Origin: a virus
DNA length: 42,161 nt
IMG/VR virus record: IMGVR_UViG_3300030430_003832
Span: 1 to 42,161 of that record
Reading direction: 5' to 3' (one strand)
This document shows, in pieces, positions 30,779 to 35,827 of this stretch. Within the stretch, counting starts at the first letter, position 1; the number at the start of each line of letters is the position of its first letter. The position numbers and the translations under genes were made by a program. The notes under the pieces were generated by a model, which was not told the DNA's origin, made no database searches, and saw only the letters and a list, made by a program, of their open reading frames with translations.

Positions 30779-31426
30779 ATGGCAGGATTCTGGACACAGG
30801 CAAATGCAACCCCAAAAAGAAACCATAGATTTTTGGTTGAAATCACCGAACTCGGTAAAGGAGGGGCTGGATCGGGAGGTGGTGCCCAATCAGTTATCTG
30901 GTGGGCAAAAACAGTTTCAACACCATCGTTCGGTATTACGAGCGTTACTCATTCATTTTTAGATAATGAATATTACTTCCCCGGACGTGTACAGTGGAAA
31001 GAAGTCTCCATGCAGTTGGTTGACCCAGTGTCTCCTGATGCTGTGAGCTTGACAAACCAAATGATCAATGATTTTGGATATGTTGTAAAAAATAGACGAA
31101 ATCTTGATACTGCTGGACAGCCAAACCCAGTCATTCCCGGATCACCTGTTACATTTGATCGCAAAAGAACTAAATCTGCTATTGGTGACTTTATCATACA
31201 GATTCTTGATGAAGACGGAAGAACTTTAGAAAAGTGGACTCTTCACAATGCTTTTCCAACTGACATTAAGTTTGGTGACATGGATTACTCTAGTGATGAA
31301 CTTAGAACAATTGACATGACTATTAAATTTGATTGGGCTACTTGTGATGTTATGGGTGATGAATCCAATCCAAAAGAAGAGTATTTCCGTCAAGCTCGAA
31401 TTAATAACACCTTTACTAACAACTAG
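30779..31426 (+). CDS. 19: Tail tube protein (gp19-like), first copy
   Basis: This inner tail tube subunit has 215 residues (T4 gp19 is 163). It shows the marine-phage gp19 pattern: FWTQANATPKRNHRFLVEIT, SVIWWAKTVSTPSFGITSVT, YYFPGRVQWKEVSMQLVDP, and GDFIIQILDEDGRTLEKWTL before FGDMDYSSDELRTIDMTIKF. The core is the beta-barrel of contractile tail tubes. A 30-residue stretch around PNPVIPGSPVTFDRKRTKSA is absent from the second copy. ATAGGAGAACATAGTT is the ribosome site. A paralog follows 6 nt later. Confidence 0.88.
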   Translation: MAGFWTQANATPKRNHRFLVEITELGKGGAGSGGGAQSVIWWAKTVSTPSFGITSVTHSFLDNEYYFPGRVQWKEVSMQLVDPVSPDAVSLTNQMINDFGYVVKNRRNLDTAGQPNPVIPGSPVTFDRKRTKSAIGDFIIQILDEDGRTLEKWTLHNAFPTDIKFGDMDYSSDELRTIDMTIKFDWATCDVMGDESNPKEEYFRQARINNTFTNN

Positions 31427-31432
31427 TGAACC

Positions 31433-31948
31433 ATGGCCTTTTGGACTGAAACTGCTGCTGAACCCGTTCGACAACACAGGTTTTTAATACAGACAGGTGT
31501 TGAAGGCGGGATTTGGTGGTGGACAAAAACTATTGCTAAGCCCACCGCTACTGTGTCCGTGCTTGAAAGTCAATTAGGCAATCACAAGTTTAAGTATCCC
31601 GGTATACTTACTTGGGGATCTATCTCAATTGAGATTGTTGACATTGAAAGCAAAGCAAAAAAGTTGTATGATTATCTTGTAAATGGCGGATACGTGCCAA
31701 GGCCTGAAGTTCCTTATGTCGATGGTATGTCAAAAGTGCTTATTAGAGATAATCTAACAAGCGATGCAAACTTTCAAATACAACAAATCAACGCCGATGG
31801 TGCAATAATCGAACAGTGGACTTTGATAAATCCATTTGTTTCCGAAATTAATTTTGGCAGTTTAGATTACTCCAGTGATGAACTAGTTACTATATCAATG
31901 ACTATAGAAATGGACAGAGTAGACTTTGAGAGCTTTGATCCCGGTTAA
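31433..31948 (+). CDS. Second tail tube paralog (gp19-like)
   Basis: This 171-residue protein is homologous over its whole length to the preceding tube protein: FWTETAAEPVRQHRFLIQTG, IWWWTKTIAKPTATVS, YPGILTWGSISIEIVDIES and LDYSSDELVTISMTIEMDR. It lacks the Gly-rich and Pro-rich inserts of copy one and is close to T4 gp19 in size. The ATG has only a weak ribosome site, so it may be made at a lower level by coupling. It could be a minor tube ring (tip or terminator), an alternative tube subunit or a co-polymer. Confidence 0.85.
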   Translation: MAFWTETAAEPVRQHRFLIQTGVEGGIWWWTKTIAKPTATVSVLESQLGNHKFKYPGILTWGSISIEIVDIESKAKKLYDYLVNGGYVPRPEVPYVDGMSKVLIRDNLTSDANFQIQQINADGAIIEQWTLINPFVSEINFGSLDYSSDELVTISMTIEMDRVDFESFDPG

Positions 31949-31975: not shown

Positions 31976-32812
31976 ATGAGTAGAAACAATCTTGATCGCA
32001 CAGGAGCAAGCGATAAAAATATAGATGCTCCAAAACCAGATATTTTACAATTTGTCACACCAACAGAGTTTGTAGAATTGCCGTCAAAAGGGTTAGCCTA
32101 TAAAGAAGGTCACCCACTACACAACAAGGAAGTCATTGAAATACGCTACATGACTGCGAAAGATGAAGACATTTTAACCAGCCAAAGTCTTTTAAAGAAA
32201 GGCTTGGCAGTTGATCGATTTCTCCAAAATATCCTAGTCGACAAAAAAATCAACGTACAAGAGTTAGTGGTTGGCGACAGAAATGCAATTATTGTTGCAG
32301 CCAGAGAGTCTGGTTATGGTAGTCAGTATGATACAAAGGTTTCCTGTCCGGCGTGTGGTGAAAAGAACAATATGTCGTTCGACTTACAGAACAAAAAAAT
32401 CACCGAACCTGTTATCAGTGAAGAACTTGGAATCAGTAAAACCGAAAAGGGAACCTTTAATGTAAAGTTGCCGCTTAGTAACCACACTGTTGAACTTAAA
32501 TTATTAACAGGAAAAGATGAATTTTTTCTTAGCAAGCTGTCAAATACAAAGAAAAAGAATAGAGTTGAAGAATCTGCGATGACCGATCAGTACAAGCTCA
32601 TGGTTGTGGGAGTCGAGGGTCATACGGAAAAATCACTCATCAACAGATATATTGATAACATGCCAACGAGAGATTCTCGTTTTCTTAGAAAAGCCTATAA
32701 AGCGATCAGCCCTAACTTAGAAATAAAACAAGAGTTTACCTGTGGATCTTGCGGACACGAGCAAGAATTGGAGGTTCCGTTTGGCGCGGACTTTTTTTGG
32801 CCTGAACGATAA
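31976..32812 (+). CDS. 26: gp26-like baseplate / tail-assembly chaperone protein
   Basis: This 278-residue protein resembles the T4 gp26 (T4_baseplate) family in its opening TPTEFVELPSKGLAY and KEVIEIRYMTAKDEDIL, the DRFLQNILVDKKINVQELVV helix, and its ending FGADFFWPER. It contains two Cys pairs, SCPACGEKN (about 124-127) and TCGSCGHEQ (about 255-258), a likely zinc-binding ribbon, as in other members of this group. It lies before the tape measure with the gp51-like reading frame beginning 4 nt later in the +1 frame. The FF codons near the end form part of a run of seven T, a possible shift site. AAGAGGTATAA is the ribosome site. Confidence 0.75.
   Translation: MSRNNLDRTGASDKNIDAPKPDILQFVTPTEFVELPSKGLAYKEGHPLHNKEVIEIRYMTAKDEDILTSQSLLKKGLAVDRFLQNILVDKKINVQELVVGDRNAIIVAARESGYGSQYDTKVSCPACGEKNNMSFDLQNKKITEPVISEELGISKTEKGTFNVKLPLSNHTVELKLLTGKDEFFLSKLSNTKKKNRVEESAMTDQYKLMVVGVEGHTEKSLINRYIDNMPTRDSRFLRKAYKAISPNLEIKQEFTCGSCGHEQELEVPFGADFFWPER
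32792..32798 (+). promoter_or_regulatory. Candidate +1 ribosomal frameshift site (T7 run)
   Basis: Seven consecutive T fill the two Phe codons and the first base of the Trp codon before the end of the gp26-like gene. A +1 slip of tRNA-Phe from TTT to TTT enters the gp51-like frame without mismatch, giving a 333-residue fusion. A -1 slip does not reach that frame. Confidence 0.4.
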
Positions 32813-32816
32813 ATAT

Positions 32817-32978
32817 ATGCAGGCTGTTTATGAGCAGTTCTTCTTGTTAAAATATCATGGAGGCTGGTCATTCACTGAGGCGTACAATTTACCCGTGGGT
32901 CTTAGGCAGTGGTTCTTGCAAAGACTACAAAAGCAATTTGAAGACGAAAAAGAACAATTAGAAAAAGCCAGAAAGTGA
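32817..32978 (+). CDS. 51: gp51-like small tail-assembly protein
   Basis: This frame encodes at least 53 residues: YEQFFLLKYHGGWSFTEAYN followed by LPVGLRQWFLQRLQKQFEDE, an aromatic helix pair ending in a charged helix. This pattern (aromatic YHGGWS, then a short N-P-V-x-x-R-x-W block) recurs in gp51-type or tail-assembly-chaperone C-terminal parts of T4-like phages. The ATG at 32817 is 4 nt after the gp26-like stop and has no recognisable ribosome site, so the frame is either translated by re-initiation or reached by +1 frameshifting at the T7 run upstream. The frame itself is open from 32742, across the shift site. A terminator overlaps its end. Confidence 0.7.
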   Translation: MQAVYEQFFLLKYHGGWSFTEAYNLPVGLRQWFLQRLQKQFEDEKEQLEKARK

Positions 32979-33028: not shown

Positions 33029-33394
33029 ATGAGTAATAAAAAAGTTTTAAATGAGTTTATCGCGACAACCACTCCATACCAGCGATATCTAGCAAGATTT
33101 AGCAAAATGTTGTTGAAACAGCTGTACGGTGATGATGTAATTTTAACTGCGGATGTTACTAATCTAAAAGAGGATGAAGACGGCGGAAAGCTGAACTTTT
33201 CAATTGCTGGTGATGAAGACGATGTTAAGTCATATGCTCGTGCAATCATGGCACAAAAAAACTATTTAGATGCTTATGTTCAATTTGGTGTAGATCACTT
33301 TCAATCGCAAAAGACTAGAGAAATATTGGATCAAGAAATTGCTGAATTTGAAAGAACAACAGGTTTACTTTGGCCTTTCTCAACTGAGGAATGA
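33029..33394 (+). CDS. Hypothetical small protein before tape measure
   Basis: This is a 121-residue soluble protein. I chose the ATG at 33029, which has ACGAGGGTCC before it; an in-frame GTG at 32975 lies inside the terminator. The N-terminus is helical and aromatic/basic (YQRYLARFSKMLLKQLYGDD), the middle acidic (LKEDEDGGKLNFSIAGDEDD), and the C-terminus a helix ending in ERTTGLLWPFSTEE. I do not recognise it. Its place between the chaperone pair and the tape measure, at the head of the same transcript as the tape measure, makes a tail-assembly role likely. Confidence 0.8.
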   Translation: MSNKKVLNEFIATTTPYQRYLARFSKMLLKQLYGDDVILTADVTNLKEDEDGGKLNFSIAGDEDDVKSYARAIMAQKNYLDAYVQFGVDHFQSQKTREILDQEIAEFERTTGLLWPFSTEE

Positions 33395-33397
33395 TGA

Positions 33398-35827
33398 ATG
33401 ACGATAACACCAGAACAGTTAGAGCGCGAAAAAGAATATACAAAGGTTCTACAACAACAGGCTGACGCTAAAGAGAGGCAAGCAAAAGTAGATAAGACTG
33501 CTAGTGATGCTAGAAAAAACGATCTCGAAAACATTGCTGATCTTGAAAATAGAATTAGAGAAATAAAATTAGATTCAGAACTAGCGACCACAAGGTCTGA
33601 TCAGGTTGAAATGAATAAACAGCTGTATGAAATCTCACAGTTAATATATGATTTACAACAAAAATCAGAGTTTGCTGTAGGAGAAGAAGCAGCAATGTAT
33701 GAAAAGCAAATTGCTGATCTTCAATTGATTGGTCAACAGTTGCAAAAAAACGGGGCGATTGCAAAAAAACAAACTGAAAGTCAAGAGAAGCTCTCAAGGT
33801 CAACAAACGCAATGTTTGATGGTTTGTTACGAAAAACACAAATTTTTCAAGATCACACGACCACCGGTGTAGGTAGTCTCATACAGATGACGTCTGAGAT
33901 TATGGCTGCTGATGACCCTATGGAGTCATTTGCTAATTCGTTTACAAAATATTTCAATGCTCTTAATGTTGCAACTGGTTTATTCTATACAATTAAAGAG
34001 CAAAGTATAGGATTGGCACAGGCTCTTGACCGTGCCAACGTTGCTTTTGCTGAGGGAACCGGTCTGGGAAATGAATTTCAAAGCACAATTGCACAAGCAG
34101 CAATTGAAAATAATCACCTAGGTATTGAGATGAGAGAAGCAGGAAGAGCCACTGAGGCTTTATTAACTTCAACTGCTTTGTTCTCTGAGCAATCTAAAAA
34201 ATTACAAGGAGACATGGTAAAATTAGGCGCTGAATTAAGTAAGATAGGGGTTGACGGAAATACAGCCGCAGAGTCTTTAAATATATTTCAACTTAATATG
34301 GACATGTCAGGTAATGAAGCCATCAAGATGAGTAAAAAACTTGCAATGATGGGTAAAGCGATGGGTAAAACATCAGCACAGATGACAAAGGATTTTCAAC
34401 AAGCCTTCTCGGTGTTAGCAGTTCATGGTGAAGAATCTATAGAAGTATTTCAAGGACTATCTGCCGCTGCCAAAACAGCCGGATTAGAAGTCGGCAAGCT
34501 TACAACACTGGCTGGGAAGTTTGATACTTTTGAATCAGCAGCAACAACTACCGGTAAACTCAATGCATTGCTTGGATCACAGTTGTCAGCAACAGAAATG
34601 CTCATGATGAAAGAAGATGAAAGGGTTGAGACGTTAATTAGACAAGTGCAAGCACAAGATGTCGCATTTAAAGACATGGATCGTTTCCAGCAAAAAGCAA
34701 TCGCTTCTGCCGCTGGTATAACTGACATGAACGAAGCGCAAAGGATCTTTGGTATGAACATGGAACAGTTCAGCGATCACAGAGAGAAGATGGAAAAACA
34801 AGCAAATGTTCAGGAAAACTTCTCAAAAGCAATAGAAGCAACAATACCTATACAAGAAAAGTTCACAATATTTCTTAGAGAGTTTGCTATTGTAGTAGAA
34901 CCTTTGTTAGGAATGATGGAAAGTTTTTTTGACGTTCTAATTTTTCTCACAAATGAGATTGGTGAAACTGGTATGCAAATTATATTTTTTACTTCTGTTG
35001 TCACAATTGGTTACTTTGCTTTTACAAACTTTACGGGCGCGATAACAAAAGGTAAGGCAGCGCTAAATGCACTAAAGGCGACTCAAGAAGCCTTAACAAC
35101 AATAGCCAAGGCACAAAATGCTCAAACCGCTGCTGGTGAGGCTATTCAAAAAACAAAAAATGTAACGGACAGTGCTGCTGGTGTTATTTCTGGTCAACAG
35201 GCTGTCAAAGAAACTGCTGAGATGAATGCTCGAAATGCTAACACCGCTTCTAAATCAGCAGCGATTGGTCCAACCGTAGGTTTGGGTCAAGCAACTGGTG
35301 TGGCTGGTGCGGCAGCTACAAAAGGCGCTATTGGTTTCTTAGCAGTTGCTGCTGGTATTGGTCTGATTGCGGTAGGTATTGCAGCAGTAATTGCTGCTTA
35401 TGCTAGATACATAGAGGCACAAGCAAGGGTTGAGGCTTCGTCTGCTAGAAGCATGGAGGCAATGTCTACATTTGGTGACGCCATGGTGGACACAAAAGCG
35501 CTTGACGCAGGACTGTCAATTATGAAGGCGAGACTTAGTGAAATAAAAACACTGTTAACAGAAGATGACGCAATTCTAGCTCATGGTTTAGAAAACCTAG
35601 CACTTGCTGCTACAGGTGTTAGTGCCAGAAAAATGTCCGGAGGGGCAGCAGAGGTCGCTACAACACTAAAAACAGCGGTTGCAGCCGCAGTTACTTCAAG
35701 ACACGAAATAACATTAAAACTAAAAGACGATGCTTTGTTTAATTTGATAGACAAAGAGGGATCTAGGGCACTTACAAGTGCAAATGGTGAGATGAGAAAA
35801 GCTGTTTTGAAGATAATTAATGATTAG
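33398..35827 (+). CDS. Tail tape measure protein (gp29-like role)
   Basis: This 809-residue protein fixes tail length and is ejected with the DNA. It opens with a long coiled coil (about 1-155, rich in Gln, Lys and Glu), then mostly helical sequence with many Ala, Met and Lys. Hydrophobic, probably membrane-active segments lie at about 504-545 (MESFFDVLIFL and MQIIFFTSVVTIGYFAF) and 643-672 (GFLAVAAGIGLIAVGIAAVI). At ~0.15 nm per helical residue it would span about 120 nm. The assignment rests on length, helix content, hydrophobic blocks and position after the chaperone pair. T4 gp29 is 590 residues. GAGGAATGATGA precedes the ATG. Confidence 0.85.
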   Translation: MTITPEQLEREKEYTKVLQQQADAKERQAKVDKTASDARKNDLENIADLENRIREIKLDSELATTRSDQVEMNKQLYEISQLIYDLQQKSEFAVGEEAAMYEKQIADLQLIGQQLQKNGAIAKKQTESQEKLSRSTNAMFDGLLRKTQIFQDHTTTGVGSLIQMTSEIMAADDPMESFANSFTKYFNALNVATGLFYTIKEQSIGLAQALDRANVAFAEGTGLGNEFQSTIAQAAIENNHLGIEMREAGRATEALLTSTALFSEQSKKLQGDMVKLGAELSKIGVDGNTAAESLNIFQLNMDMSGNEAIKMSKKLAMMGKAMGKTSAQMTKDFQQAFSVLAVHGEESIEVFQGLSAAAKTAGLEVGKLTTLAGKFDTFESAATTTGKLNALLGSQLSATEMLMMKEDERVETLIRQVQAQDVAFKDMDRFQQKAIASAAGITDMNEAQRIFGMNMEQFSDHREKMEKQANVQENFSKAIEATIPIQEKFTIFLREFAIVVEPLLGMMESFFDVLIFLTNEIGETGMQIIFFTSVVTIGYFAFTNFTGAITKGKAALNALKATQEALTTIAKAQNAQTAAGEAIQKTKNVTDSAAGVISGQQAVKETAEMNARNANTASKSAAIGPTVGLGQATGVAGAAATKGAIGFLAVAAGIGLIAVGIAAVIAAYARYIEAQARVEASSARSMEAMSTFGDAMVDTKALDAGLSIMKARLSEIKTLLTEDDAILAHGLENLALAATGVSARKMSGGAAEVATTLKTAVAAAVTSRHEITLKLKDDALFNLIDKEGSRALTSANGEMRKAVLKIIND

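Follow-up and report, generated by a model that had tools for sequence, protein, structure and literature searches.

Gene organization and the candidate slip site

The window analysed here is a stretch of 42,161 nucleotides of the IMG/VR virus record IMGVR_UViG_3300030430_003832, from a marine virus of T4 type. T4-type genes in this record encode a gp17-like terminase, a gp20-like portal, a gp23-like capsid protein, a gp18-like sheath and two gp19-like tubes; no tRNA genes were found in the window. A gp26-like open reading frame (ORF) is located between the two tube genes and a large ORF regarded as the tape measure gene by its position. The original prediction referred to frameshifted chaperone pairs directly upstream of the tape measure in tailed phages; here, a 121-aa ORF separates the pair from the presumed tape measure gene. 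The features of the locus are as follows.

30779–31426, + strand: tail tube protein 1, gp19-like, upstream context (phrog_4542 tail tube, E=6e-25)
31433–31948, + strand: tail tube protein 2, gp19-like, upstream context (phrog_4542 tail tube, E=6e-21)
31976–32812, + strand: putative short tail assembly chaperone form (TAC-N), gp26-like, 278 aa, TAA at 32810–32812
31976–32978, + strand: putative long chaperone form (TAC-NC), 333-aa frameshift fusion, translated with a single +1 step
32770–32774, + strand: GGAGG, Shine-Dalgarno (SD)-like, 20 nt 5' of the slip codon, with a spacing that suits TTG 32781
32789–32791, + strand: GAC codon preceding the T run, whose C abolishes a clean -1 slip
32792–32800, + strand: candidate slip site TTT_TTT_TGG, present in 118 of 127 distinct relatives, the others retaining YUU_U
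32793–32978, + strand: +1-frame C-terminal domain (TAC-C), beginning FFGLNDKY..., stop at 32976–32978
33029–33394, + strand: 121-aa ORF between the chaperone and the presumed tape measure gene, no Pfam or PHROGs match
33398–35827, + strand: presumed tape measure protein, 809 aa, by position only

The gp26-like ORF matched PF12322 (T4_baseplate) in Pfam with E=5e-17 and 62.7 bits, exceeding the curated cut-off of 24.5, and phrog_150 (baseplate hub) in PHROGs with E=4.5e-22. Only one PF12322 stretch was present in the 333-aa fusion, and the window gp26 was matched once within its own record, the matched piece being a fragment. Pfam and PHROGs searches gave no match for the 809-aa ORF; it is downstream of the tube and chaperone genes, the same place as the tape measure gene in the annotated relatives L083, L087 and L088. 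In Microcystis phage Mel-JY01, a 71-aa ORF occupies the place of the 121-aa ORF.

The gp26-like ORF ends with GAC TTT TTT TGG CCT GAA CGA TAA. The slip region C_TTT_TTT_TGG spans 32791–32800 and includes a run of seven T's at 32792–32798; read through this run, the +1 frame gives FFGLNDKYMQAVYEQFFLLKYHGGWSF... and continues to 32978. The T run, the gp26-like stop and the +1 relation of the second frame were thus found at the coordinates originally predicted. The +1 frame had been described as open from 32742; it is open there, but the opening begins at 32727, and 32742 is the first GTG. As had been noted, the first ATG of this frame (32817) has no ribosome-binding site. A TTG at 32781 in the +1 frame, which the prediction had missed, has GGAGG at good spacing, and this GGAGG is accounted for also by the Glu-Val codons of frame 0. 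Translation with a +1 slip yielded a fusion of the predicted 333 residues with the junction ...GADFFGLNDK..., including the expected ...DFFGLNDK.

Structures of the two halves of the fusion, gp26 and TAC-C, were predicted separately. The AlphaFold2 model of gp26 had a mean pLDDT of 91, and TAC-C was predicted to be all-helical with moderate confidence (pLDDT 78). In a Foldseek search with the gp26 model, the HK97 tail assembly chaperone 2ob9 had the highest probability among the listed PDB matches, which was not significant (probability 0.47, E=0.56), and named matches in a viral structure library were mostly gp26-type baseplate-hub proteins. The fold search with TAC-C gave no match. A phmmer match of the fusion to 8prj was disregarded, as it contained no significant single stretch.

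Conservation, selection and start codons among relatives

Relatives were collected in two sets, one of 80 IMG/VR relatives of the window gp26 (47–93% identity) and one of loci found with gp26 of phage Mel-JY01 (78 scorable); removal of near-copies from both left 127 distinct sites. The second domain was in the +1 frame and began at the slip site in 80/80 relatives of the first set, and the +1 relation and the motif were present in 78/78 scorable loci of the second. The 127 sites comprised TTTTTTTGG (118), CTTTTTTGG (3), and TTTCTTTGG, TTCTTTTGG and TTTTTTTAC (2 each). YUU_U was present at the slip codon in all 127, and the A-site codon was UGG in 125 and UAC in 2. Relatives that keep the frames and lack the T run, which the original prediction had counted against itself, were few (TTTCTTTGG, TTCTTTTGG and CTTTTTTGG break the seven T's) and all retained YUU_U; hence, the needed element appears to be YUU_U, not seven T's. 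The +1 relation and the slip motif are kept wherever both parts are present, far beyond chance. In addition, 41 fusions from the window and its relatives aligned end to end.

The +1 relation was also observed in Mel-JY01, Flavobacterium phage immuto, Bacillus phage SP-15, Listeria phage LIS04, Streptococcus phage GXN1, megaphage LR756508 and Rhodothermus phage RM378. The site of GXN1 is TTC_TTT_CGT, and +1 sites of this UUC_UUU_CGU type have been described for influenza A PA-X (PMC3498833). A scan of viral contigs with SP-15 returned nothing beyond SP-15 itself. In LR756508 (near 4735–4756 of L084), the +1 relation is kept while TTT_CTA_TTC replaces the Phe-Phe pair; a slip there would need to occur one codon earlier, from TTT_C to TTC, or at another site.

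Purifying selection changes from frame 0 to the +1 frame exactly at the slip site. On 58 dereplicated loci, pN/pS in frame 0 was 0.43 before the site and 1.8 past the 0-frame stop, and that in the +1 frame was 1.2 before the site and 0.25 after it. Start codons were examined in the same frame. The upstream +1 frame had no ATG in 66/127 relatives, and no +1-frame start was present until at least 15 codons into the domain in 23/127. ATG, GTG and TTG were all absent from the +1 frame before the domain in 30/127, in which frameshifting would be needed to express it. These results, namely the conserved site and frame in 127 relatives, the switch in selection and the lack of usable starts in many relatives, support the originally predicted +1 programmed frameshift on comparative grounds. 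A programmed +1 frameshift very probably yields a short and a long tail assembly chaperone of the lambda G/GT type from one gene.

Proposed slippage and alternative explanations

Most ribosomes would reach the TAA of gp26 and produce the short form, TAC-N. In a minority, P-site tRNA-Phe on the second UUU of UUU_UUU_UGG would slip one base forward and again pair with UUU: the P-site codon at 32795–32797 would re-pair at 32796–32798, the 0-frame A-site codon being UGG at 32798–32800. Decoding would restart at GGC in the +1 frame and give the 333-aa TAC-NC with a 59-residue helical tail past the two Phe residues. Homology and position point to a chaperone function. The roles of the two forms are taken from lambda gpG/gpGT (PMC5009743): by this analogy, the part of TAC-N would be to coat the tape measure protein and that of the TAC-C tail to recruit tail-tube subunits, with slip frequency setting a low long:short ratio.

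No evident stimulator accompanies the site. When the downstream RNA was folded and compared with shuffled sequences, no conserved structure emerged (mean z -0.1 to -0.4), and there was no SD-like stimulator at the spacing of prfB; the SD-like match lies only approximately 20 nt upstream. A match near the GGAGG offset was present in about 41–42 of 58 dereplicated relatives and absent from the remainder. UGG is neither a stop codon nor particularly rare here (8.5 per 1000).

TAC-C could instead be made as a small independent protein from a start in or after gp26, either TTG 32781 with its SD-like GGAGG or ATG 32817. Some SD-linked start was found in 27 of 58 dereplicated relatives of the first set, and cyanophage short gp51 ORFs are annotated in databases. 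However, an SD-linked start before the domain was absent in 96/127 relatives, as was any start codon in the 30 mentioned above; the +1 frame upstream of the site was not under selection; and FFGL of the +1 product is nearly invariant although it is encoded before any general start. Hence, internal initiation was rejected as a general mechanism, and we regard it as a very unlikely explanation of the window; from the unconserved starts and the selection pattern, the fusion is the more parsimonious product. In LR756511 (approximately 4750–4930 of L085) and Cygsa01 (3300–3482 of L176), the domain begins at a start codon of its own that overlaps the gp26 stop (TAATG). This coupling is in line with separate initiation in these two, and suggests that such lineages have lost the fusion in favour of coupled translation.

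The same frame would be reached by a -2 slip, which has been proposed for phage Mu. In most relatives, the seven T's would let a single tRNA slip by -2 at the second UUU, but at TTC_TTT_TGG (L044 and L055) and TTC_TTT_CGT (GXN1) this would require pairing with UCU and a middle-base mismatch, while the +1 slip pairs cleanly; the TTC_TTT_TGG variants thus make a -2 slip very unlikely. Transcriptional slippage, in which changed U counts in the mRNA would join the frames, is compatible with the homopolymer. C-broken runs (TTCTTTTGG and TTTCTTTGG) nevertheless retain the frames and the domain, which disfavours this explanation to the point of being highly improbable, and the choice of T or non-T before the run mirrors the -1 or +1 direction, as fits tRNA slippage. 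The variants TTC_TTT_TGG, TTT_CTT_TGG and CTT_TTT_TGG favour a single-tRNA +1 slip at YUU_U over both. Finally, a homopolymer error in a metagenomic contig with seven T's, the real gene being one continuous frame, is practically excluded, because the shift is kept in 127 distinct sequences of independent assemblies and in several isolate genomes.

Relation to T4 gp26/gp51 and direction of the proposed slip

PF12322 was also matched by T4 gp26, T4 gp51, S-RIM8, SP-15 and RM378. It covers T4 gp26 (208 aa) end to end and residues 1–201 of T4 gp51 (249 aa), which are followed by a 48-residue tail. The whole fusion gave a weak profile match to single T4 gp26 or gp51 sequences, and the relation was resolved with family profiles and Pfam. 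Although a direct hhalign comparison of the window set with the T4 gp51 tails was not significant, the C-terminal domains were linked in a chain from the window set to the Mel-JY01 set (E=3e-21), from that to the cyanophage set (6e-6), and from the cyanophage set to the strabovirus (T4) gp51 tails (3e-11). These profile comparisons indicate homology between TAC-C and the T4 gp51 tail via the small gp51 ORF of cyanophages. The 'gp51-like' label of the original prediction accordingly holds for the C-terminal tail of T4 gp51 and fails for the remainder. The PF12322 extents and the chain together imply that T4 gp26 corresponds to the short form and gp51 to the long form, made from a second gene.

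The T4 pair thus resembles the window in having PF12322 in both proteins and a TAC-C homologue as the gp51 tail; unlike T4, where the two forms come from two divergent genes and no frameshifting, the window has no second, long gene carrying a PF12322 domain of its own. Two-gene short and long chaperones in some T4-like phages are described in PMC10885494 as a report of Vladimirov et al. 2022 (Virology 566:9), and a 2016 review listed T4 as an exception to the chaperone frameshift rule (PMC5009743).

The base before the T run was C, A or G in 126/127 relatives. A T-ending codon before the run occurred once among the 127, in contrast to 73 expected from codon usage; the Asp codon at this position was GAC in 52/53 cases, whereas elsewhere in the gene GAT was dominant (GAC 353/984). 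A non-T base here removes clean -1 slippage. Cyanophage-type loci (S-RIM8 and 126 distinct contigs) share both domains and a junction at the corresponding Phe-Phe pair, but their site is T_TTT_TTC and the domain is read in the -1 frame. This arrangement was found in 130 of 132 scored cyanophage-type gp26 loci, one of the others lacking the domain and one being +1. A T-ending codon preceded the Phe pair in 126/126 distinct loci, against 78 expected. The combination of T_TTT_TTC and the -1 frame recurs in Vibrio phage Bakedbeans and Agrobacterium phage Atu_ph07. The flanking bases therefore track slip direction, and provide a natural experiment. The cyanophage -1 form is probably already known, as poly-T -1 sites in T4-like phage chaperones are attributed to Vladimirov et al. 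in PMC12846349.

In a tree of 42 gp26 proteins, all +1 forms fell in one clade, including the separately started LR756511; Atu_ph07 (-1) neighboured this clade, and the cyanophage -1 forms and the T4 duplication were on the other side. Several branches of the tree are long, and its root is the midpoint only. The best reading of these sequences is that slip direction is a clade-level trait. We consider it likely that, within one homologous chaperone family, the frameshift flips direction between clades at a shared Phe-Phe pair through single flanking bases (non-T_TTT_TTT_T for +1, T_TTT_TTC for -1), that the T4 duplication arose from the -1 side, and that the +1 site is an RF2-like YUU_U with a sense A-site codon and no evident stimulator.

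Chaperone frameshifting in itself is already known. Lambda gpG/gpGT (PMC5009743) likewise has a short chaperone gene between tube and tape measure, with a frameshift near its end that adds a domain, and as in lambda, comparative evidence indicates that translation of the second frame occurs only in fused form, by way of a conserved slippery site. Unlike lambda, the window belongs to a separate protein family (PF12322) and would use a +1 slip at YUU_U; the -1 slip at an X_XXY_YYZ heptamer, common but not universal in G/GT systems, is absent in view of the +1 relation and the non-T base in 126/127. Chaperone frameshifts of +1 type have been predicted in halovirus HSTV-2 (PMC5009743) and in the HF1 group at TTT_CGC (PMC7230728). 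These share a tail assembly chaperone, the direction and a UUU slip codon with the window, but the HF2 chaperone has no PF12322 match, and host and slip context differ; the two are probably convergent. The prfB (RF2) site, YTT_TRA_C (PMC3711429), similarly has a P-site YUU followed by U and a one-tRNA +1 slip. The window differs from it in its A-site codon, the sense codon UGG where prfB has a stop, in lacking a close upstream SD and in its purpose. A +1 form in PF12322 phages and a clade-level switch of direction were not found in the literature searched, in which Vladimirov et al. 2022 is represented through citing papers only. The +1 direction would thus extend this form of frameshift to very widespread T4-type and related phages, with a path of homology to T4 gp51, and culturable phages among the +1 carriers make it testable now.

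The long form is missed, or given as separate hypothetical ORFs, in the records of Mel-JY01, immuto and SP-15. Short hypothetical ORFs are annotated where the +1 domain lies in immuto (4833–4943 of L083) and SP-15 (4758–4877 of L088); they are apparently truncated pieces of this domain, the long chaperone form being missing there. In cyanophages, gp26 (L180–L309 and L174) has an invariant T_TTT_TTC one codon before its stop, and the small ORF annotated as 'gp51 baseplate hub assembly catalyst' reads across that stop in the -1 frame without interruption; this ORF is hence probably the -1 frameshift tail of gp26 and no gene of its own. Synechococcus phage S-SCSM1 (L173, MK867354; 3685–3720), unlike its relatives, has gp51 in the +1 frame after TCT_TTT_TTC. 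Its junction is approximately 11 nt longer than that of L180, which points to an error in sequencing or assembly, or else to loss of the fusion in this lineage.
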